A stretch of 20,884 nucleotides of DNA from the IMG/VR virus record IMGVR_UViG_3300034152_000765, positions 1 to 20,884 of that record. One strand, 5' to 3'. The notes under the pieces were generated by a model. The model was not told where the DNA came from. It worked only from the letters and a program-made list of their open reading frames with translations, and searched no databases. Numbering within the stretch: position 1 is the stretch's first letter; every line of letters begins with the position of its first letter. Source of the DNA: a virus. Shown in pieces: positions 8,854-20,765 of this stretch. A program made the translations under genes and the position numbers.

Positions 8854-9891
8854 ATGGAACGCAAATTGGCCAGCATACAAAAAATAGTCGATATACAACC
8901 TATCGAAGGCGCCGACATGATAGAAGTGGCAACTGTTCTTGGTTGGCATTGCGTTGTGAAGAAAGGCGAGTTTCAACCTGATGATCTTTGTGTCTATTTT
9001 GAGGTTGATTCCCTGCTCCCTGTCAAAGAGCAATATGAATTTCTAAGGAAATCTTGCTTCAATAGCAGGCTCAATGGGTTCAGGATAAAAACCATCAAGC
9101 TTCGAGGGCAAGTTTCTCAGGGCCTCGCAATTCCAGTTGAAGATGTGTTCGGTAAAATCGACATGCTAGACCTCAAAGAAGGTCTTGATGTAACTGAAAT
9201 TCTTGGTGTCCGAAAGTACGAAGTTGAAATACCTGTATCTCTCAGCGGAGCAGCTAAGGGCAATTTCCCCTCTTTCGTTCCTAAAACTGACGAGATTAGG
9301 ATTCAGTCTGTGCCAGCAGTGCTTACTCGCTATAATGGCGTGCCATTTGTTGTAACGGAAAAACTAGATGGGACTTCTTCGACCTACTATGTGAAAGATG
9401 GTGAGTTTGGTTTCTGTAGCAGGAACTGGGACTTCAAAGAAGATACTGAAAACACATACGCGAAAATAGCAAAGAAATACGACATAAAAGAAAAGTTGAG
9501 TAAGTTCGGCAAAAACATTGCAATACAAGGTGAAATCGTAGGACCTGCTATACAGAAAAACAGATATAAGCTCGCTGACCACATGCTCTTTGTATATCAT
9601 GTCTTTGACATAGACAACTACAGATACTTCAGCCACAACGATCTTGAAGACTTCAGCACAGAATTTGGTTTCAACATTGTGCCAACTGTTGCAAGAGGAA
9701 TATTTCTTGAAGAGTGCATGAGAAGTGTTGATGAAGCAGTTGAATTTTCTGTTGGTCAATCTCTTATATATAAAGACATGCAAAGAGAGGGCATTGTAGT
9801 AAAATCTGCATTAGAGAAGAGAGACCCAGACATTGGAAGATTGTCTTTCAAAGTCATAAATCCAAAATATTTGCTCAAATACGAGGACTAA
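8854..9891 (+). CDS. RNA ligase, DRB0094/Rnl5 type
   Basis: A 345-aa ATP-dependent RNA ligase of the Deinococcus DRB0094 (Rnl5) type. The N-terminal ~150 residues form the OB-like domain characteristic of this family (IEGADMIEVATVLGW, then PDDLCVYFEVDSLLP), and the nucleotidyltransferase domain follows. Motif I is E169-K170-L-D-G-T-S (adenylated lysine 170), motif IV REGIVVKS at 311-318, motif V SFKVINPKYLLK at 331-342. Characterised Rnl5 enzymes seal nicks in duplexes with an RNA 3'-OH end. In this phage, with its tRNAs, tmRNA and RNase P RNA, repair of cleaved tRNA is an attractive but unproven role. Ribosome binding site GAGGAG lies 6 nt before the ATG. Confidence 0.92.
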   Translation: MERKLASIQKIVDIQPIEGADMIEVATVLGWHCVVKKGEFQPDDLCVYFEVDSLLPVKEQYEFLRKSCFNSRLNGFRIKTIKLRGQVSQGLAIPVEDVFGKIDMLDLKEGLDVTEILGVRKYEVEIPVSLSGAAKGNFPSFVPKTDEIRIQSVPAVLTRYNGVPFVVTEKLDGTSSTYYVKDGEFGFCSRNWDFKEDTENTYAKIAKKYDIKEKLSKFGKNIAIQGEIVGPAIQKNRYKLADHMLFVYHVFDIDNYRYFSHNDLEDFSTEFGFNIVPTVARGIFLEECMRSVDEAVEFSVGQSLIYKDMQREGIVVKSALEKRDPDIGRLSFKVINPKYLLKYED

Positions 9892-10430: not shown

Positions 10431-10680
10431 GGGGATGCACTGGTTTCGACCGGAATACAGAGAAGACTGATTGAAGTTTCATTTGCTATAAACGGCGAAT
10501 ATCAACTAGCTGCATAAGCAGCACTCGGCTATTACAAAATCAGTTTCCTAATACCTGAGTAATAGCTAACAAAGATTAGGAACAAAGTAAAAAAGTTAAG
10601 AGCTTGAACTGCTCTATAAAATGGTTCGTGCAAATCAGTTGGAAAGTTCCGGGACGCGAGTTCAATTCTCGCCATCTCCA
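10431..10680 (+). ncRNA. ssrA: tmRNA (transfer-messenger RNA), tag AINGEYQLAA
   Basis: Ribosome-rescue RNA of one-piece type. The acceptor stem pairs GGGGATG (10431-10437) with CATCTCC (10673-10679), with A10680 as discriminator and no encoded CCA. TGGTTTCGAC follows the 5' strand, as in tmRNAs. The T arm is GCGAG-TTCAATT-CTCGC (10656-10672). ACTGATT (10466-10472) pairs with AATCAGT (10633-10639) as the long P2 helix. The tag frame GCT...GCA TAA (10485-10517) encodes AINGEYQLAA, ending in the LAA degron. An H-type pseudoknot forms from GCTATTAC (10528-10535)/GTAATAGC (10559-10566) and TTCCTAAT (10545-10552)/ATTAGGAA (10575-10582). At 250 nt it is much shorter than the 363-nt E. coli RNA, so some pseudoknots must be missing. 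Confidence 0.96.
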
Positions 10681-10880: not shown

Positions 10881-13800
10881 GTGAGCTTAGAATGGTTACA
10901 GCCGATATCGAAAGAACAGTTTGAAATAAAATATCAGTTTCATAGGTCGAGCCCAGAAGAGGTTATACGAGATGTAGCTACAGTTATATCAGAGGTTGAA
11001 AAACCAGAAAAAAGAGAAGCTATAAAAGAAAAGTTTTATGAAATGATGGTAAATAGGAGGTTCATACCTGGCGGTAGAATTTTAGCTAACGCTTGGCCCG
11101 GAACCCCAGTCAAGAACTACATCAACTGCTTTACGGTTGGAACCGAAGACGACATGACTTCGATTTATAACACCTTGGCAGAGGACGCCAAAATATCTAA
11201 GGTGGGCGGGGGAGTCGGCTTGGACATCTCACCATTGAGACCCAAGGGCTCCCCTCTTTCTGTGGGTGGTGAAGCTTCAGGACCCTTATCTTTCCTGAAG
11301 ATATTCGATGCATCAGCTAAGATTATAATGACAGGTGGCTCAAGACGTTGTTTGCCAAAAGGTGCCTGGATAAACACTCGATACGGAATGAAAAAGATTG
11401 AAGAAATAGAAATTGGCGAAGAAGTTTTGACATCAGATGGATATGCGAAAACATCTGGTAAATTCGAGCAAGGAGAACAAGAGACTATAAAAATAATCAC
11501 TCAAGATGGCGAATTTGAGTGCACGCCAAACCATAAAATGCCAGTCTTTGACAGCTGCTTTACTTATACCTGGAAAGAAGCTAAAGATCTAAAAAAAGGT
11601 GATAAGTTAGTCTGGGTGGCTCAAACTATTGAAGGGAAAGACACTAGGCTACCCCCATTTGAATATATCAAGCCGCTGAGCTCAACAACTTGTAAAGACA
11701 TAACAATACCTCAATTAGATGCCGACATTGCGTGGTTGTTTGGTCTCATTCATGGAGATGGTTGCGTGCGACTCATAGGAGCCGGCAAAGGCAAGCTAAC
11801 TATTGACTGTGACCCTAAGTATCCAGAAATTGTAGAAAGAGCTAAAAACATTATTTCAAAATTTGGAATAGATGCGACTGTAAGAAAGCGTTTTGGCAAA
11901 AAAAGCATAACCGGCTCTATTGTAATCAAAGTACACTCTAAACAACTAGCTTTATTTTTATCTCAATTCAAAATTCCAAATAGCGATATATCTATCCCCT
12001 CTTTCATAATGGAGGGGCGACAGGAAATAAGAGCAGCTTATTTAGCTGGACTTTTTGACAGCGATGGGTCTGCCAGAAATAGATCTATAAAAGCTGTTTG
12101 CACAATTTATCCCAACTTTAAAAACGATATAGTAGCTCTATACAGTTCTTTATCAATACCAGTAAGAGTTATCGCAAAAAGAAGTAGAAAAAATAATTGG
12201 AGAGATAAATACTTAGTAAAAATTGTTGGTTCAACGTCAAGAGAATGTTTTGATAGATTTATAGCTCCACATTCGCAGAAGTTTATTTATAGAATTAGAG
12301 ACACGAAAAGCGCCTTTTATGGAAAAAGCAAACACGACCACAACTTCCCAATGATGTTTTTCAAAAATATAGAATTAAGAAAAAAAGACAGATTAGCAAA
12401 TGTGTGCACCAAAAATAAAAATATAACCTTTTCTACTCTATCAAGAGTACTGGATAAAAAACTAAACTTAATCCCAATTGATTTTATCAAAATAGTTCCA
12501 GGTAGAAAAATAGAAACATTTGATTTAGAGGTTGAAAATAAACACGAGTTCGTATCTTCTGGCTATTTAACTCACAATTCTGCTCATATTGCTTTGCTTG
12601 ACGTGTCGCATCCCGATATAGAAGAGTTCATAACGTGTAAACAAGGTGACAAGAACAGAGAACTTACACAGTTTAATATTTCCGTCAAGGTCACAGACAA
12701 GTTTATGAAGGCTGTTGATGAAGACAAAGATTGGAATTTAACCTGGGGAGGTGATGTTTATAAAACGGTAAGGGCTCGTCACTTGTGGGATATGATAGCT
12801 AAAAATGCATACAAGAACAACGAACCAGGTATATTCAATGTAGATACAATCAACCGATACAATAACGGTTGGTGGATGTATGAAATACACCAATGCAACC
12901 CGTGCATAACTGGAGATACATTAATTGCTGTAGCTGATGGTAGAAACGCAGTCCCTATAAAACAGCTTGCTGAAGAGTCAAATGACATTCCAGTTTACGC
13001 AAAGGATGGCGACGGAAAAACTGTTATTAGAATGATGAGGAATCCAAGAATAACAGGACACAATAAGAAAATCCTTAAAGTATACTTAGATGATGGCACT
13101 ACAGTTAGATGTACCGAGAATCACAAATTCATGCTTAATGATGGATTTTACAAGGAAGCAAAAGATTTAAATGTTGGCGACTCTCTAAAAAGATTTGATT
13201 CATATATTTCAAACAAGAAATACAGACAGATCAAGTCTGGCACCGGAAGAGACAGACAACAATACAGAATGATTGCTGAGCATTTTGGTTTAATAGGCAA
13301 TCCTAAAACTGAGGCAATACATCATTATGATTTCGATCTGCTAAATGATCTACCAGAAAACTTAGTTGCCATGGATCGCAATGAGCACCACGAACTTCAT
13401 TCAGAAAGAATGAAAGGTGACAACAATCCGATGCGTAAATACTCAGAAAGAAACTGGATGAACAATCCAGATGCTCAGCAAGCAACACGAAAGAAACATC
13501 ACATTGGAGCAAATAGAAGCGATGAAACTAAAGCTAGAATGAAAGAGGTAATGGCTGGGAATAACCATCAAGTCAGCTCAATTGAGCTAGACGGGCATGA
13601 AGATGTTTATAATGGAACAGTAGATGATTATCATAACTACGCAATTGTAACTTCGTCTAATGATGAAAAGTTCATTACCACTTCGGGAGTATTTATTAAA
13701 AATTGTGGAGAACAAATGTTGGAAAAATACGGCGTTTGTTGTTTAGGGGCTATGAATCTTACTGCTTACGTAGTAAATCCATTTTCTTCTGAAGCATATT

Positions 13801-15179
13801 TCGATTTCACTAAGTTAGAAAGAGATGTAGCTTTAGCTGTAAGATTTTTAGATAACGTCCTTGATGCTGCCGAATATCCTCTAGAAAAGATAACAGAGCA
13901 AGTCCAAAGCTTGAGAAGAATAGGTCTTGGGTTTATGGGTCTTGGCGATGTATTCGCTATGATGAGAATGGTCTATGGCGATAAAAAGTCGCGTCATCTA
14001 TCAAAAGAAATAGCACAGTTGTTGAGAGACTGTTCTTACATGACTTCTGCATCTTTAGCTCAAGAAAAAGGCTCGTTCCCACTGTGCGACAACGATAAAC
14101 TGTTGCAATCAAATTTTATTCAGAAACTGCCCGATATAATCAAAACAGAAATAAAAAAACATGGTCTAAGAAATATAGCACTAAACACAGTTGCTCCGAC
14201 TGGCACAACTGCTCTTACTTTGGGAATGAATTGCTCTTCGGGAATTGAGCCGATATTTTCTTTAGAATATCAAAGGAATATCAGAACTAAATCTAATCCC
14301 GACGAGTATATTACACAAGAAGTTTTTGATTACGCTTGGGGGATGTGGAAACTTTTTAGAAGCGAAAGACCAATAAAAATCCCTGAGTTCTTCGTGACTA
14401 CAAAAGATATAGCGCCAAAAGACAGTATAGATATACAGGCAATATTTCAAGAGTATATTGACGCTGCTATCAGTAAGACTTTGAATCTTCGTCCAGGAAC
14501 TACTTTTGAAGAATACAAAGACTTGTTCTCTTATGCATACAAGAAGGAGCTCAAAGGCTTCACAACTTTCAACCCTGACGGAAGTATGCGAGGTATTTTA
14601 GAATACAACGTTCCATTCAAAAATGGCAAAAACAATAGTAACGGATATATCAAAAGAAGGATAGCTCCTCCCCGAGAAAGGGATTTACCGTGCGACATAC
14701 ATAAAACTACTATAAAGGGTAAAAAGATAGTTGTTCTTGTTGGAAAACTGAAAGGTTCTTTGTATGAAATATTTGTAGATGATGATTCTAATGGAAGCTT
14801 GGACTTAGATAAAATAGGAAAGAACGGAATAATCAGAAAAGTCGGTAGCAATAAATACAACCTAATAGTTCAGAACGGTGAAGAAAAAGTTGTAGTTGAA
14901 AACTTGAGCAAAAACTTCGGCGGCACTTACGGAAGTCTTGCACGCTTTGTTTCAATGTCTCTCCGGCATGGAACGCCACTTCAGTTTATAGTAGATCAAC
15001 TTACAAAATCAAAAGAATTCGTTGGTTTTGAGCGCTCTGTATCTCGTGTTCTAAAGAAGTATATAAAAGATGGAGAAAAGGTTATAACTGGCGACGTTTG
15101 TCCAGAATGTGAAGGCGAGCTAGAATTCAAAGACGGATGTGTTTTCTGTCCAAACTGTGCTTGGAGCAAGTGTCTCTAA
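10881..15179 (+). CDS. nrdJ: class II (B12-dependent) ribonucleotide reductase precursor with two inteins
   Basis: A 1432-aa precursor; removal of two inteins (410 and 267 aa) leaves a 755-aa reductase, the usual size of NrdJ. It reduces ribonucleotides to deoxyribonucleotides by a thiyl radical generated from adenosylcobalamin. Extein landmarks: Cys83 (NYINCFTVG) and Cys953, the likely redox pair; NPCGE formed across intein 2, with Cys942 as the radical cysteine and Glu944; LNTVAPTGTTALTLG (phosphate-binding PTGT) later. The C-terminus has CPECEGELEFKDGCVFCPNC, the zinc-binding tail typical of NrdJ. No ATP-cone is evident at the N-terminus. GTG 10881 is preceded by AAAGGAGGAG. No separate small subunit or activase gene is seen, consistent with class II. 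Confidence 0.93.
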   Translation: MSLEWLQPISKEQFEIKYQFHRSSPEEVIRDVATVISEVEKPEKREAIKEKFYEMMVNRRFIPGGRILANAWPGTPVKNYINCFTVGTEDDMTSIYNTLAEDAKISKVGGGVGLDISPLRPKGSPLSVGGEASGPLSFLKIFDASAKIIMTGGSRRCLPKGAWINTRYGMKKIEEIEIGEEVLTSDGYAKTSGKFEQGEQETIKIITQDGEFECTPNHKMPVFDSCFTYTWKEAKDLKKGDKLVWVAQTIEGKDTRLPPFEYIKPLSSTTCKDITIPQLDADIAWLFGLIHGDGCVRLIGAGKGKLTIDCDPKYPEIVERAKNIISKFGIDATVRKRFGKKSITGSIVIKVHSKQLALFLSQFKIPNSDISIPSFIMEGRQEIRAAYLAGLFDSDGSARNRSIKAVCTIYPNFKNDIVALYSSLSIPVRVIAKRSRKNNWRDKYLVKIVGSTSRECFDRFIAPHSQKFIYRIRDTKSAFYGKSKHDHNFPMMFFKNIELRKKDRLANVCTKNKNITFSTLSRVLDKKLNLIPIDFIKIVPGRKIETFDLEVENKHEFVSSGYLTHNSAHIALLDVSHPDIEEFITCKQGDKNRELTQFNISVKVTDKFMKAVDEDKDWNLTWGGDVYKTVRARHLWDMIAKNAYKNNEPGIFNVDTINRYNNGWWMYEIHQCNPCITGDTLIAVADGRNAVPIKQLAEESNDIPVYAKDGDGKTVIRMMRNPRITGHNKKILKVYLDDGTTVRCTENHKFMLNDGFYKEAKDLNVGDSLKRFDSYISNKKYRQIKSGTGRDRQQYRMIAEHFGLIGNPKTEAIHHYDFDLLNDLPENLVAMDRNEHHELHSERMKGDNNPMRKYSERNWMNNPDAQQATRKKHHIGANRSDETKARMKEVMAGNNHQVSSIELDGHEDVYNGTVDDYHNYAIVTSSNDEKFITTSGVFIKNCGEQMLEKYGVCCLGAMNLTAYVVNPFSSEAYFDFTKLERDVALAVRFLDNVLDAAEYPLEKITEQVQSLRRIGLGFMGLGDVFAMMRMVYGDKKSRHLSKEIAQLLRDCSYMTSASLAQEKGSFPLCDNDKLLQSNFIQKLPDIIKTEIKKHGLRNIALNTVAPTGTTALTLGMNCSSGIEPIFSLEYQRNIRTKSNPDEYITQEVFDYAWGMWKLFRSERPIKIPEFFVTTKDIAPKDSIDIQAIFQEYIDAAISKTLNLRPGTTFEEYKDLFSYAYKKELKGFTTFNPDGSMRGILEYNVPFKNGKNNSNGYIKRRIAPPRERDLPCDIHKTTIKGKKIVVLVGKLKGSLYEIFVDDDSNGSLDLDKIGKNGIIRKVGSNKYNLIVQNGEEKVVVENLSKNFGGTYGSLARFVSMSLRHGTPLQFIVDQLTKSKEFVGFERSVSRVLKKYIKDGEKVITGDVCPECEGELEFKDGCVFCPNCAWSKCL
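11349..12578 (+). mobile_element. intein 1 in RNR, LAGLIDADG (DOD) type
   Basis: Residues 157-566 of the RNR precursor (410 aa), in frame. It starts with Cys (CLPKGAWINT) after GGSRR and ends YLTHN before Ser567, giving the spliced junction GGSRR-SAHIALL. It has the N-terminal splicing block and TPNHKMP (block B histidine), two DOD endonuclease motifs, LFGLIHGDG (about 285-293) and LAGLFDSDG (about 388-396), and a C-terminal HEFVSSGYLTHN block. All splicing residues look intact. Confidence 0.93.
12903..13703 (+). mobile_element. intein 2 in RNR, HNH type with NUMOD3-like region
   Basis: Residues 675-941 (267 aa), in frame. It begins CITGDTLIAVADG after HQCNP and ends GVFIKN before Cys942, reforming HQCNP-CGEQML. 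Block B is CTENHKFML. The centre has an HNH-nuclease pattern with HHYDFDLLNDLPENL (from His814) and EHHELHSE, followed by GDNNPMRKYSE and repeats of the NUMOD3 kind. The C-terminal block is DDYHNYAIVTSS...GVFIKN. The host cysteine +1 doubles as the RNR catalytic cysteine. Confidence 0.92.
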
Positions 15180-20149: not shown

Positions 20150-20233
20150 GGGTCGGTATGCAAGTTTGGCTAAAGCAGGCTGTCTGTAAAACAGTTCTCT
20201 AAGAGTTCGGGGGTTCGAATCCCTCCCGGCCCA
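20150..20233 (+). tRNA. tRNA-Tyr (GUA)
   Basis: Acceptor GGGTCGG (20150-20156) pairs with CCGGCCC (20226-20232), discriminator A20233, no encoded CCA. The anticodon stem GCTGT/ACAGT encloses CTGTAAA, anticodon GTA at 20186-20188. A long variable arm (about 20196-20208) fits bacterial tyrosine tRNA, and the T loop is TTCGAAT. Confidence 0.94.
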
Positions 20234-20236
20234 CTC

Positions 20237-20367
20237 AAGAATGCTTACAGGGGAGATAACTGAAACAGTGTATAGTGATCATAGTGCACGGCGGGGGTGA
20301 TATTGGCAGTAAGCCTGAATAAGACTGAATGCCGGTTTGATTCCGGCTCTCCCCTGTAAGCATTCTT
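20237..20367 (+). ncRNA. tRNA-like element inside a perfect 20-bp inverted repeat
   Basis: The arms 20237-20256 and 20348-20367 are perfect 20-bp inverted complements (left arm AAGAATGCTTACAGGGGAGA). The inner 7 bp GGGGAGA/TCTCCCC sit exactly like a tRNA acceptor stem, because directly 5' of the right arm is a T-arm-like hairpin GCCGG-TTTGATT-CCGGC (20331-20347). No convincing D and anticodon arms are found in the 74 nt between (20257-20330); small helices such as ACTG-aaa-CAGT (20259-20269) and CAGT...ACTG (20307-20327) are possible. The acceptor-to-acceptor length of about 105 nt is too long for a normal tRNA. It may be a divergent tRNA, a tRNA mimic, or an RNA with an RNase III-type processing stem. 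Confidence 0.6.
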
Positions 20368-20371
20368 TCAT

Positions 20372-20445
20372 AGGCGTCTAGGCAAATGGTGAAGCCGATT
20401 GTCTTATAAACAATTGATGTCTGGGTTCAATCCCCAGGGCGCCTA
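20372..20445 (+). tRNA. tRNA-Ile (UAU)
   Basis: Acceptor AGGCGTC (20372-20378) pairs with GGCGCCT (20438-20444, one G-U), discriminator A20445, no encoded CCA. D stem GGC/GCC. Anticodon stem ATTGT/ACAAT encloses CTTATAA, anticodon TAT at 20405-20407, reading AUA. T arm CTGGG-TTCAATC-CCCAG. Most bacteria read AUA with a CAU-lysidine tRNA instead. Confidence 0.92.
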
Positions 20446-20447
20446 CT

Positions 20448-20689
20448 ATGCTCGACTCCACGCTGGTTTTGGGATAAAAAGAACTTAGTTCTTATCCCGT
20501 AACTGGAGGAAACTCCGGACACATTTGCTTGCTGTGGGAGTAACTATAGTTGGGAATTGACAACTATAGTTTCGTTATTACCACAGAGTGTGCAACCACA
20601 AGCAGGCAGAGACGGTGAGCAAGTCTGTGAAGCCGGGTAGTGGGCATAGATAGATGTGGAGATAGAACAGAATTCGGGTTACAGAGCAT
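20448..20689 (+). ncRNA. rnpB: RNase P RNA, strongly reduced
   Basis: Catalytic RNA that cuts 5' leaders from tRNA precursors. P1 is ATGCTC (20448-20453)/GAGCAT (20684-20689); P2 CTCCAC (20456-20461)/GTGGAG (20656-20661); P3 hairpin GGGATAA (20471-20477)/TTATCCC (20492-20498). CR-I reads GGAGGAAACTCCGGAC (20505-20520), and P4 pairs CCGGA (20515-20519) with TTCGG (20673-20677), where E. coli has GGG/CCC. GTGTGCAACCACAAGCAGG and GAGCAAG (20617-20623) match later conserved regions, and CATAGATAGATG plus ACAGAATTCGGGTTA match CR-V. TGCTTG/CAAGCA is a P7-like helix around an 11-bp hairpin (20542-20571). At 242 nt against 377 in E. coli, much of the specificity domain, P15-P17 and P18 appear absent. 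It fits tightly between tRNA-Ile and tRNA-Val. Confidence 0.9.
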
Positions 20690-20692
20690 TAC

Positions 20693-20765
20693 GGGCGATT
20701 AACTCAGTTGGGAGAGTGCTACTCTTACAAAGTAGAAGTCGCAGGTTCGAACCCTGCATCGCCCA
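20693..20765 (+). tRNA. tRNA-Val (UAC)
   Basis: Acceptor GGGCGAT (20693-20699) pairs with ATCGCCC (20758-20764), discriminator A20765, no encoded CCA. Anticodon stem CTACT/AGTAG encloses CTTACAA, anticodon TAC at 20726-20728. T arm GCAGG-TTCGAAC-CCTGC. It starts 4 nt after the RNase P RNA P1 helix. Confidence 0.95.

Follow-up and report, generated by a model that had tools for sequence, protein, structure and literature searches.

A reduced, catalytic-domain-type RNase P RNA between tRNA genes of a virus record represents a class found so far only in phages

RNase P counts as a housekeeping enzyme in both cells and organelles, and phage tRNAs are presumed to depend on the host for their maturation. 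The catalytic domain (C-domain) of the E. coli RNase P RNA has been characterised apart from its specificity domain (S-domain): freed of the S-domain, it cleaves alone (0.095 units, a rate some 100-fold below that of the full RNA), and with C5 it reaches 18 units under other salt conditions, being more than 100-fold better than without C5. Disruption of a P6 mimic lowers the rate of this C-domain RNA 8- to 28-fold and removal of P15-17 abolishes cleavage, while removal of P18, which docks on P8 of the S-domain, is harmless for the RNA alone and has a three- to four-fold cost with C5 (PMC5839562).

Here we analyse a stretch of 20,884 bases (the window) which is a whole IMG/VR virus record, and in which a sequence-only reading had pointed out a short RNase P RNA between two tRNA genes. 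This RNA shares with type A (RF00010; E. coli M1 RNA) the conserved regions CR-I and CR-V, helices P1-P7 and P15-P17, the GGU of L15, the P2/P4 and P6 pseudoknots and the order of all these elements; it differs from type A in being without P9-P14, CR-II/CR-III and P18, and in its size (242 nt compared to 340-420). The sequence-only reading knew of no characterised phage RNase P RNA, and neither a phage RNase P RNA nor a phage RnpA was found to be reported in the open-access literature, including two jumbo-phage reviews and an RNase P survey and history.

Structure and setting of the RNA at 20448-20689

The plus-strand segment 20448-20689 is an RNase P RNA in reduced form, carried on a phage record. 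The RNaseP_bact_a model (RF00010, class A) matches 20444-20695 over its whole length with 43 bits (cmscan, E 1.6e-10), a score which is significant and does not reach the curated gathering score of 100 bits; R1, a covariance model of the class core whose structure omits P4 and P6 and whose E-values are rough (short calibration), gives 135.6 bits, the window RNA being one of its training members. Alone, the window RNA folds 4.2 sd lower than its shuffles. The covariance-model match is the one the sequence-only reading anticipated, and its placement of the RNA also proved correct in coordinates, strand and spacing (P1 ends at 20448 and 20689, discriminator of the upstream tRNA at A20445, start of the downstream tRNA at 20693). 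The S-domain and P18 being absent and the score lying under the cut-off, the RNA is not filed as a type A member: it falls within the known RNase P superfamily, outside type A proper, as a structurally distinct variant, and belongs to a previously unreported class that has so far been found in phages only.

The helices were checked one by one and, as read from the sequence alone, CR-I, CR-V and P1 to P4 are all present in the right order. The outer helix P1 (ATGCTC 20448-20453 with GAGCAT 20684-20689) and P2 (20456-20461 with 20656-20661) have 6/6 pairs each and covary in relatives. The P3 hairpin (20463..20506) consists of three stacked helices with 6/6, 7/7 and 6/6 pairs, counted per helix, the inner two sharing two bases; it pairs in the window and was left out of the covariation count. 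CR-I (GAGGAAACTCC, 20506..20516) matches the RF00010 consensus and leads into P4 (20512-20519 with 20673-20679, 7/7 pairs), with U20514 bulged at the position of E. coli U69. The compensatory change from G-C to A-U described for P4 relative to E. coli is there, accompanied by an extra swap from G-C to C-G. P5 (20520-20523 with 20589-20592) pairs and covaries; P6, in J5/7, joins 20525-20530 to 20617-20622 in L17 as a pseudoknot (6/6 pairs); and P7 (20532-20537 with 20581-20586, region 20532..20586) has 6/6 pairs and covaries. Between the P5 strands there are, by inspection, only P7 and a 10-bp hairpin inside it (20542-20571), the sole remnant of the S-domain; none of P9-P14, CR-II or CR-III is found in the window RNA. 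J5/15 (GCAA, 20592..20595, the region of E. coli A248) is kept in most relatives.

The sequence-only reading held most of the S-domain, P15-P17 with L15, and P18 to be missing, and this stands for the first and the last only. The P15-P17 region (20596..20643) is present, pairs and covaries: P15 (CCAC 20596-20599 with GTGG 20640-20643), P16 (20605-20607 with 20632-20634), P17 (20610-20613 with 20623-20626) and, in L15, the CCA-binding motif GGGTA (GGGUA, 20635-20639). With P15-P17 and L15 in place, the argument that tRNA genes without CCA fit a loss of L15 falls. The 3' part of the core, CR-V (ACAGAA, 20667-20672) followed by the 3' strand of P4 (ACAGAATTCGGGTTA, 20667..20681), matches RF00010, and no hairpin corresponding to P18 is found in the 27 nt separating CGGGTA from ACAGAA. 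Thus only P18 and, apart from P7 and one hairpin, the S-domain are missing, and their joint loss makes sense since P18 docks on P8.

The RNA lies in an array of plus-strand tRNA genes (ARAGORN), none of which encodes CCA, as the sequence-only reading had said of the flanking pair: tRNA-Tyr(GUA) (20150..20234), tRNA-Ile(UAU) (20372..20446, the RNA starting 2 nt after its discriminator) and tRNA-Val(UAC) (20693..20765, 3 nt downstream of the RNA). The gap between tRNA-Tyr and tRNA-Ile contains, at 20249-20356, a tRNA-like element with acceptor stem and T arm, read at low stringency by ARAGORN as a tRNA-Ser(GCU) in which 10 nt are inserted close to the anticodon. Elsewhere the window encodes a phage-borne protein with PARP catalytic and WGR domains (3-1235), an RNA ligase of the PHA02142-type family (8854-9891), a tmRNA with the short tag GEYQLAA (10431-10680), and a large subunit of ribonucleotide reductase containing two inteins, which carry homing endonuclease domains (10881-15179).

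Relatives of the window RNA and their covariation

A first pattern, with CR-I a short distance from CR-V, yielded 11 loci in IMG/VR, every one of them recognisable as an RNase P RNA and most accompanied by tRNA genes; a second gave 11 further loci, of which 8 are real, and L015, L016 and L019 are chance matches with neither tRNAs nor helices; a third gave 21 further loci, 8 of them with class-model matches, and a narrower class pattern returned one already-known locus and nothing more. The blastn search of GenBank phages with the window RNA gave chance matches only, so the relatives were used as queries, which retrieved two uncultured giants, LR745206 (634,780 b) and LR756511 (595,163 b), and the cultured Microbacterium phages A3Wally, Zooman, Big4 and one more. 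The RNA of the Microbacterium phages, a related reduced form, lies unannotated within tRNA arrays; in A3Wally the RNA (93858-94065) coincides with no annotated feature and lies about 5 nt from a tRNA-Arg gene on each side (ARAGORN; one ends at 93854, the other starts at 94071).

R1 found members outside its training set in the giant phages LR756502 (642 kb, 118 bits), LR756501 (735 kb, 91 bits) and LR756508 (484 kb, 73 bits), and in L119, L116, L110, L115, L124, L122 and L125 (80-140 bits); the giant genomes are metagenomic. RF00010 gave no match at all on the 735 kb genome, which may explain the lack of reports. Bacillus G, XacN1, Atu_ph07 and two cyanophages showed no match to either model, and R1 run on 296 Bacteroidota genomes returned none, under filters so strict as to make the result uninformative. 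The tRNA-rnpB-tRNA layout, proposed as a feature to be sought in other large phages, recurs in A3Wally, and the spacing of tRNA and RNA is also tight in L116, L006, L012 and L013, but for roughly half of the class the surrounding DNA examined contains no tRNA gene, and none of the giant phages checked has a tRNA adjoining the RNA there; adjacency to tRNAs is therefore not general.

Other forms were encountered: a smaller phage RNase P RNA of about 160 nt without the S-domain hairpin (L020, 782-939, minus strand; RF00010 79 bits); another form closing an array of 13 tRNAs on a record with TerL (L009, 10596-10802; RF00010 118 bits, above the cut-off); further reduced forms in L013, L014 and L021, where the tRNA genes mostly encode CCA, unlike those of the window; and a GOLLD RNA (L004, 2438-2853) whose tRNA array also includes a reduced RNase P RNA and a tmRNA. 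The class match in L128 (4362-4518) appears disrupted in its 5' half (CR-I, P6), possibly an insertion or a decayed copy, and was left out of the clean members.

Covariation was counted in ten phage sequences of the class of the window RNA. The full-length MAFFT alignment misplaced P1-P3 of the window, and for this reason ungapped blocks were used, hand-cut at the helices, which favours pairing somewhat; conserved letters on their flanks fix the positions of P4, P6, P15 and P16. In eight helices, including the P4 and P6 pseudoknots, 382 of 390 cells are paired (97.9%) and 31 of the 39 pairs show two-sided changes, P4 alone contributing 70/70 pairs with two-sided changes in 4 of its 7. The covariation score is 0.801, compared to 0.215 (sd 0.023) when shuffled and at most 0.112 with the partners slid; the value was not reached in 500 shuffles, nor in any of 1000 whole-strand shuffles, and the changes reappear when the core is aligned largely automatically. 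The covariation among homologues called for in P1, P2 and P4 is thus found. Among ten aligned new R1 matches, P6 is intact in nine (54/54 pairs, with new forms such as CUUCUU/GAGAAG), the tenth being L128, and eight of those nine have P4 either intact or off by one; R1 misaligned the 3' end of L095, whose P4 pairs on reading by hand. The A-rich CR-I, the bulged U, the GGGU of L15 (GGGTA or one base off in all ten aligned sequences) and CR-V are conserved, and this conservation of the active-site letters indicates selection on the catalytic core.

The class was also sought in cells. The size pattern gave 62 loci in 84,980 cellular species, with a top R1 score of 56 bits, compared to 80-168 bits for nearly all phage members. 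These loci proved to be CPR, Elusimicrobia, archaeal, gapped, ordinary or chance matches, none of them class-like: their RNAs either retain the core of the S-domain or, in archaea, lack the S-domain and belong to a different sequence group. TerL (Terminase_6N match) was found in 8 of 22 carrier records.

Protein partner, tRNA-maturation genes and probable function

Two of the giant carriers encode their own RnpA (PF00825), LR745206 (634 kb; L027 1465-1812, LR745206.1 76444-76752) and LR756502 (642 kb; L100 1435-1803, LR756502.1), both with the RNR motif and both above the NCBI rnpA cut-off of 38.35 bits (44.3 and 52.5, respectively). RnpA was not found in the other 14 records checked or in the 20.9 kb window record. 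We know of no earlier report of rnpA genes in phages that carry the RNA. Eight of 11 carriers encode a CCA-adding-enzyme domain (PF01743), which fits tRNA genes without CCA together with a retained L15; CCA-adding enzymes of jumbo phages were already known (PMC7824862). The distance between the RNA core and an RNA ligase gene of the PHA02142 type is about 35 nt in LR756501.

The window RNA retains the P4 active site and the bulged U in it, conserved joining regions rich in A, the docking site of the bacterial protein (P2/P3), P6, and P15-P17 together with L15; sequence and covariation agree on the loss of P18 and of nearly all of the S-domain, including the part that binds the T loop. From these features of sequence, structure, selection and placement we infer catalysis, a protein partner and substrates, and the window RNA is likely to be a natural stand-alone catalytic domain which is transcribed with the tRNA array, binds RnpA and cleaves the 5' leaders of phage pre-tRNAs. 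The RnpA would be that of the host here, and the phage's own in at least two giant relatives; tRNA-Val is a likely substrate, whose cleavage would mature the tRNA and free the 3' end of the RNase P RNA simultaneously. The presumed advantage would be that the maturation of phage tRNAs continues where the host enzyme is in short supply, degraded or kept away from the phage RNA. Maturation of phage tRNAs, one of the functions suggested by the sequence-only reading, remains the best reading of the function, and something unseen may substitute for the S-domain. Host independence is plausible only for the two giants encoding RnpA; nothing in the 20.9 kb fragment shows it for the window phage. More tentatively, and as a reading we consider somewhat less probable than its opposite, giant phages might themselves encode a full RNase P, made up of the reduced RNA and RnpA, which, with the CCA-adding enzyme and the RNA ligase, would form a host-independent line of tRNA maturation, the window RNA being a natural free-standing catalytic-domain ribozyme that would also free itself from the tRNA-rnpB-tRNA transcript.

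The RNA could instead be a cis-acting element, processing only its own tRNA-rnpB-tRNA transcript and not serving as a general enzyme in trans. The spacing of 2 and 3 nt in the window, that in A3Wally and the tight arrangement in L116, L006, L012 and L013 are what such an element would show, and phage theta ribozymes do cut beside tRNAs in cis (PMC10879173); this reading is nevertheless improbable, because an element acting only in cis would lack a substrate in the many members, including all the giants checked, without an adjoining tRNA in the DNA examined, and the retained L15 and P6 suit cleavage in trans. Marginally less probable again is a decoy, that is, a non-catalytic RNA which titrates or inhibits host RNase P through RnpA and so cuts the host tRNA supply: it would be consistent with the conserved protein-binding P2/P3, the shortened P16-P17 and the interference of jumbo phages with host translation (PMC13282480), but would not need the conserved P4 core, bulged U, L15 GGGU and P6, all strongly constrained, and would make the RnpA of two carriers superfluous.

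The idea of a decaying, non-functional relic of a host rnpB, acquired with the tRNA cluster, could appeal to the reduced size and the low score with the standard model; for the class as a whole the covariation already contradicts it, every helix showing compensatory changes in deeply diverged phages and in members outside the training set. The invariant active-site letters also speak against it, as do, in the window copy, 6/6 pairs in P1, P2, P6 and P7 and 7/7 in P4, and we judge it very unlikely. Equally remote is bacterial DNA misfiled as viral: no structural phage gene was found among the scanned proteins of the 20.9 kb record, yet the neighbours of the RNA match phage families (RNA ligase phrog_968, NrdA phrog_84, PRPP synthetase phrog_619), the class occurs in TerL records with a related form in cultured phages, and the class model separates the cellular loci from nearly all phage members.

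Dispersed tailed phages, among them two very large ones with RnpA, encode RNase P components of their own in forms which standard annotation misses. The cultured phages of Microbacterium foliorum, with their related reduced form, make a direct test possible.

Comparison with other reduced RNase P RNAs and with phage ribozymes

The archaeal type P/T RNAs of Pyrobaculum and Vulcanisaeta have naturally lost nearly the whole S-domain and P18, as has the phage RNA, in which P7 and one hairpin remain; type P/T works with archaeal proteins (PMC4919922). There is no sequence kinship, Vulcanisaeta and Thermoproteota RNAs scoring at most 25 bits with R1. The yeast mitochondrial RPM1 resembles the phage RNA in being a reduced RNase P RNA co-transcribed with flanking tRNAs, and differs from it in being organellar, in its protein (RPM2) and in the helices retained. 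Phage theta (HDV-like) ribozymes also lie beside tRNA genes and have been proposed to act in tRNA maturation; they are unrelated RNAs that self-cleave at tRNA 3' ends (PMC10879173). The RNAs of CPR bacteria (Patescibacteria) are likewise missing helices and sub-threshold in Rfam (PMC8172020); unlike the phage RNA, those found here are chromosomal and keep the S-domain core (ACAGAAAC...GTGAAACG).

Natural catalytic domains without a specificity domain bear on the evolution and the minimal size of this ribozyme, and the engineered E. coli construct Eco CP RPR delP18 is similar in design: S-domain and P18 are gone and P15-17 and P6 kept (PMC5839562). The phage RNA differs in being natural, in having a real P6 in J5/7 and not a mimic, and in its closed P7 with one hairpin and its shorter P16 and P17; the construct is active with and without C5.
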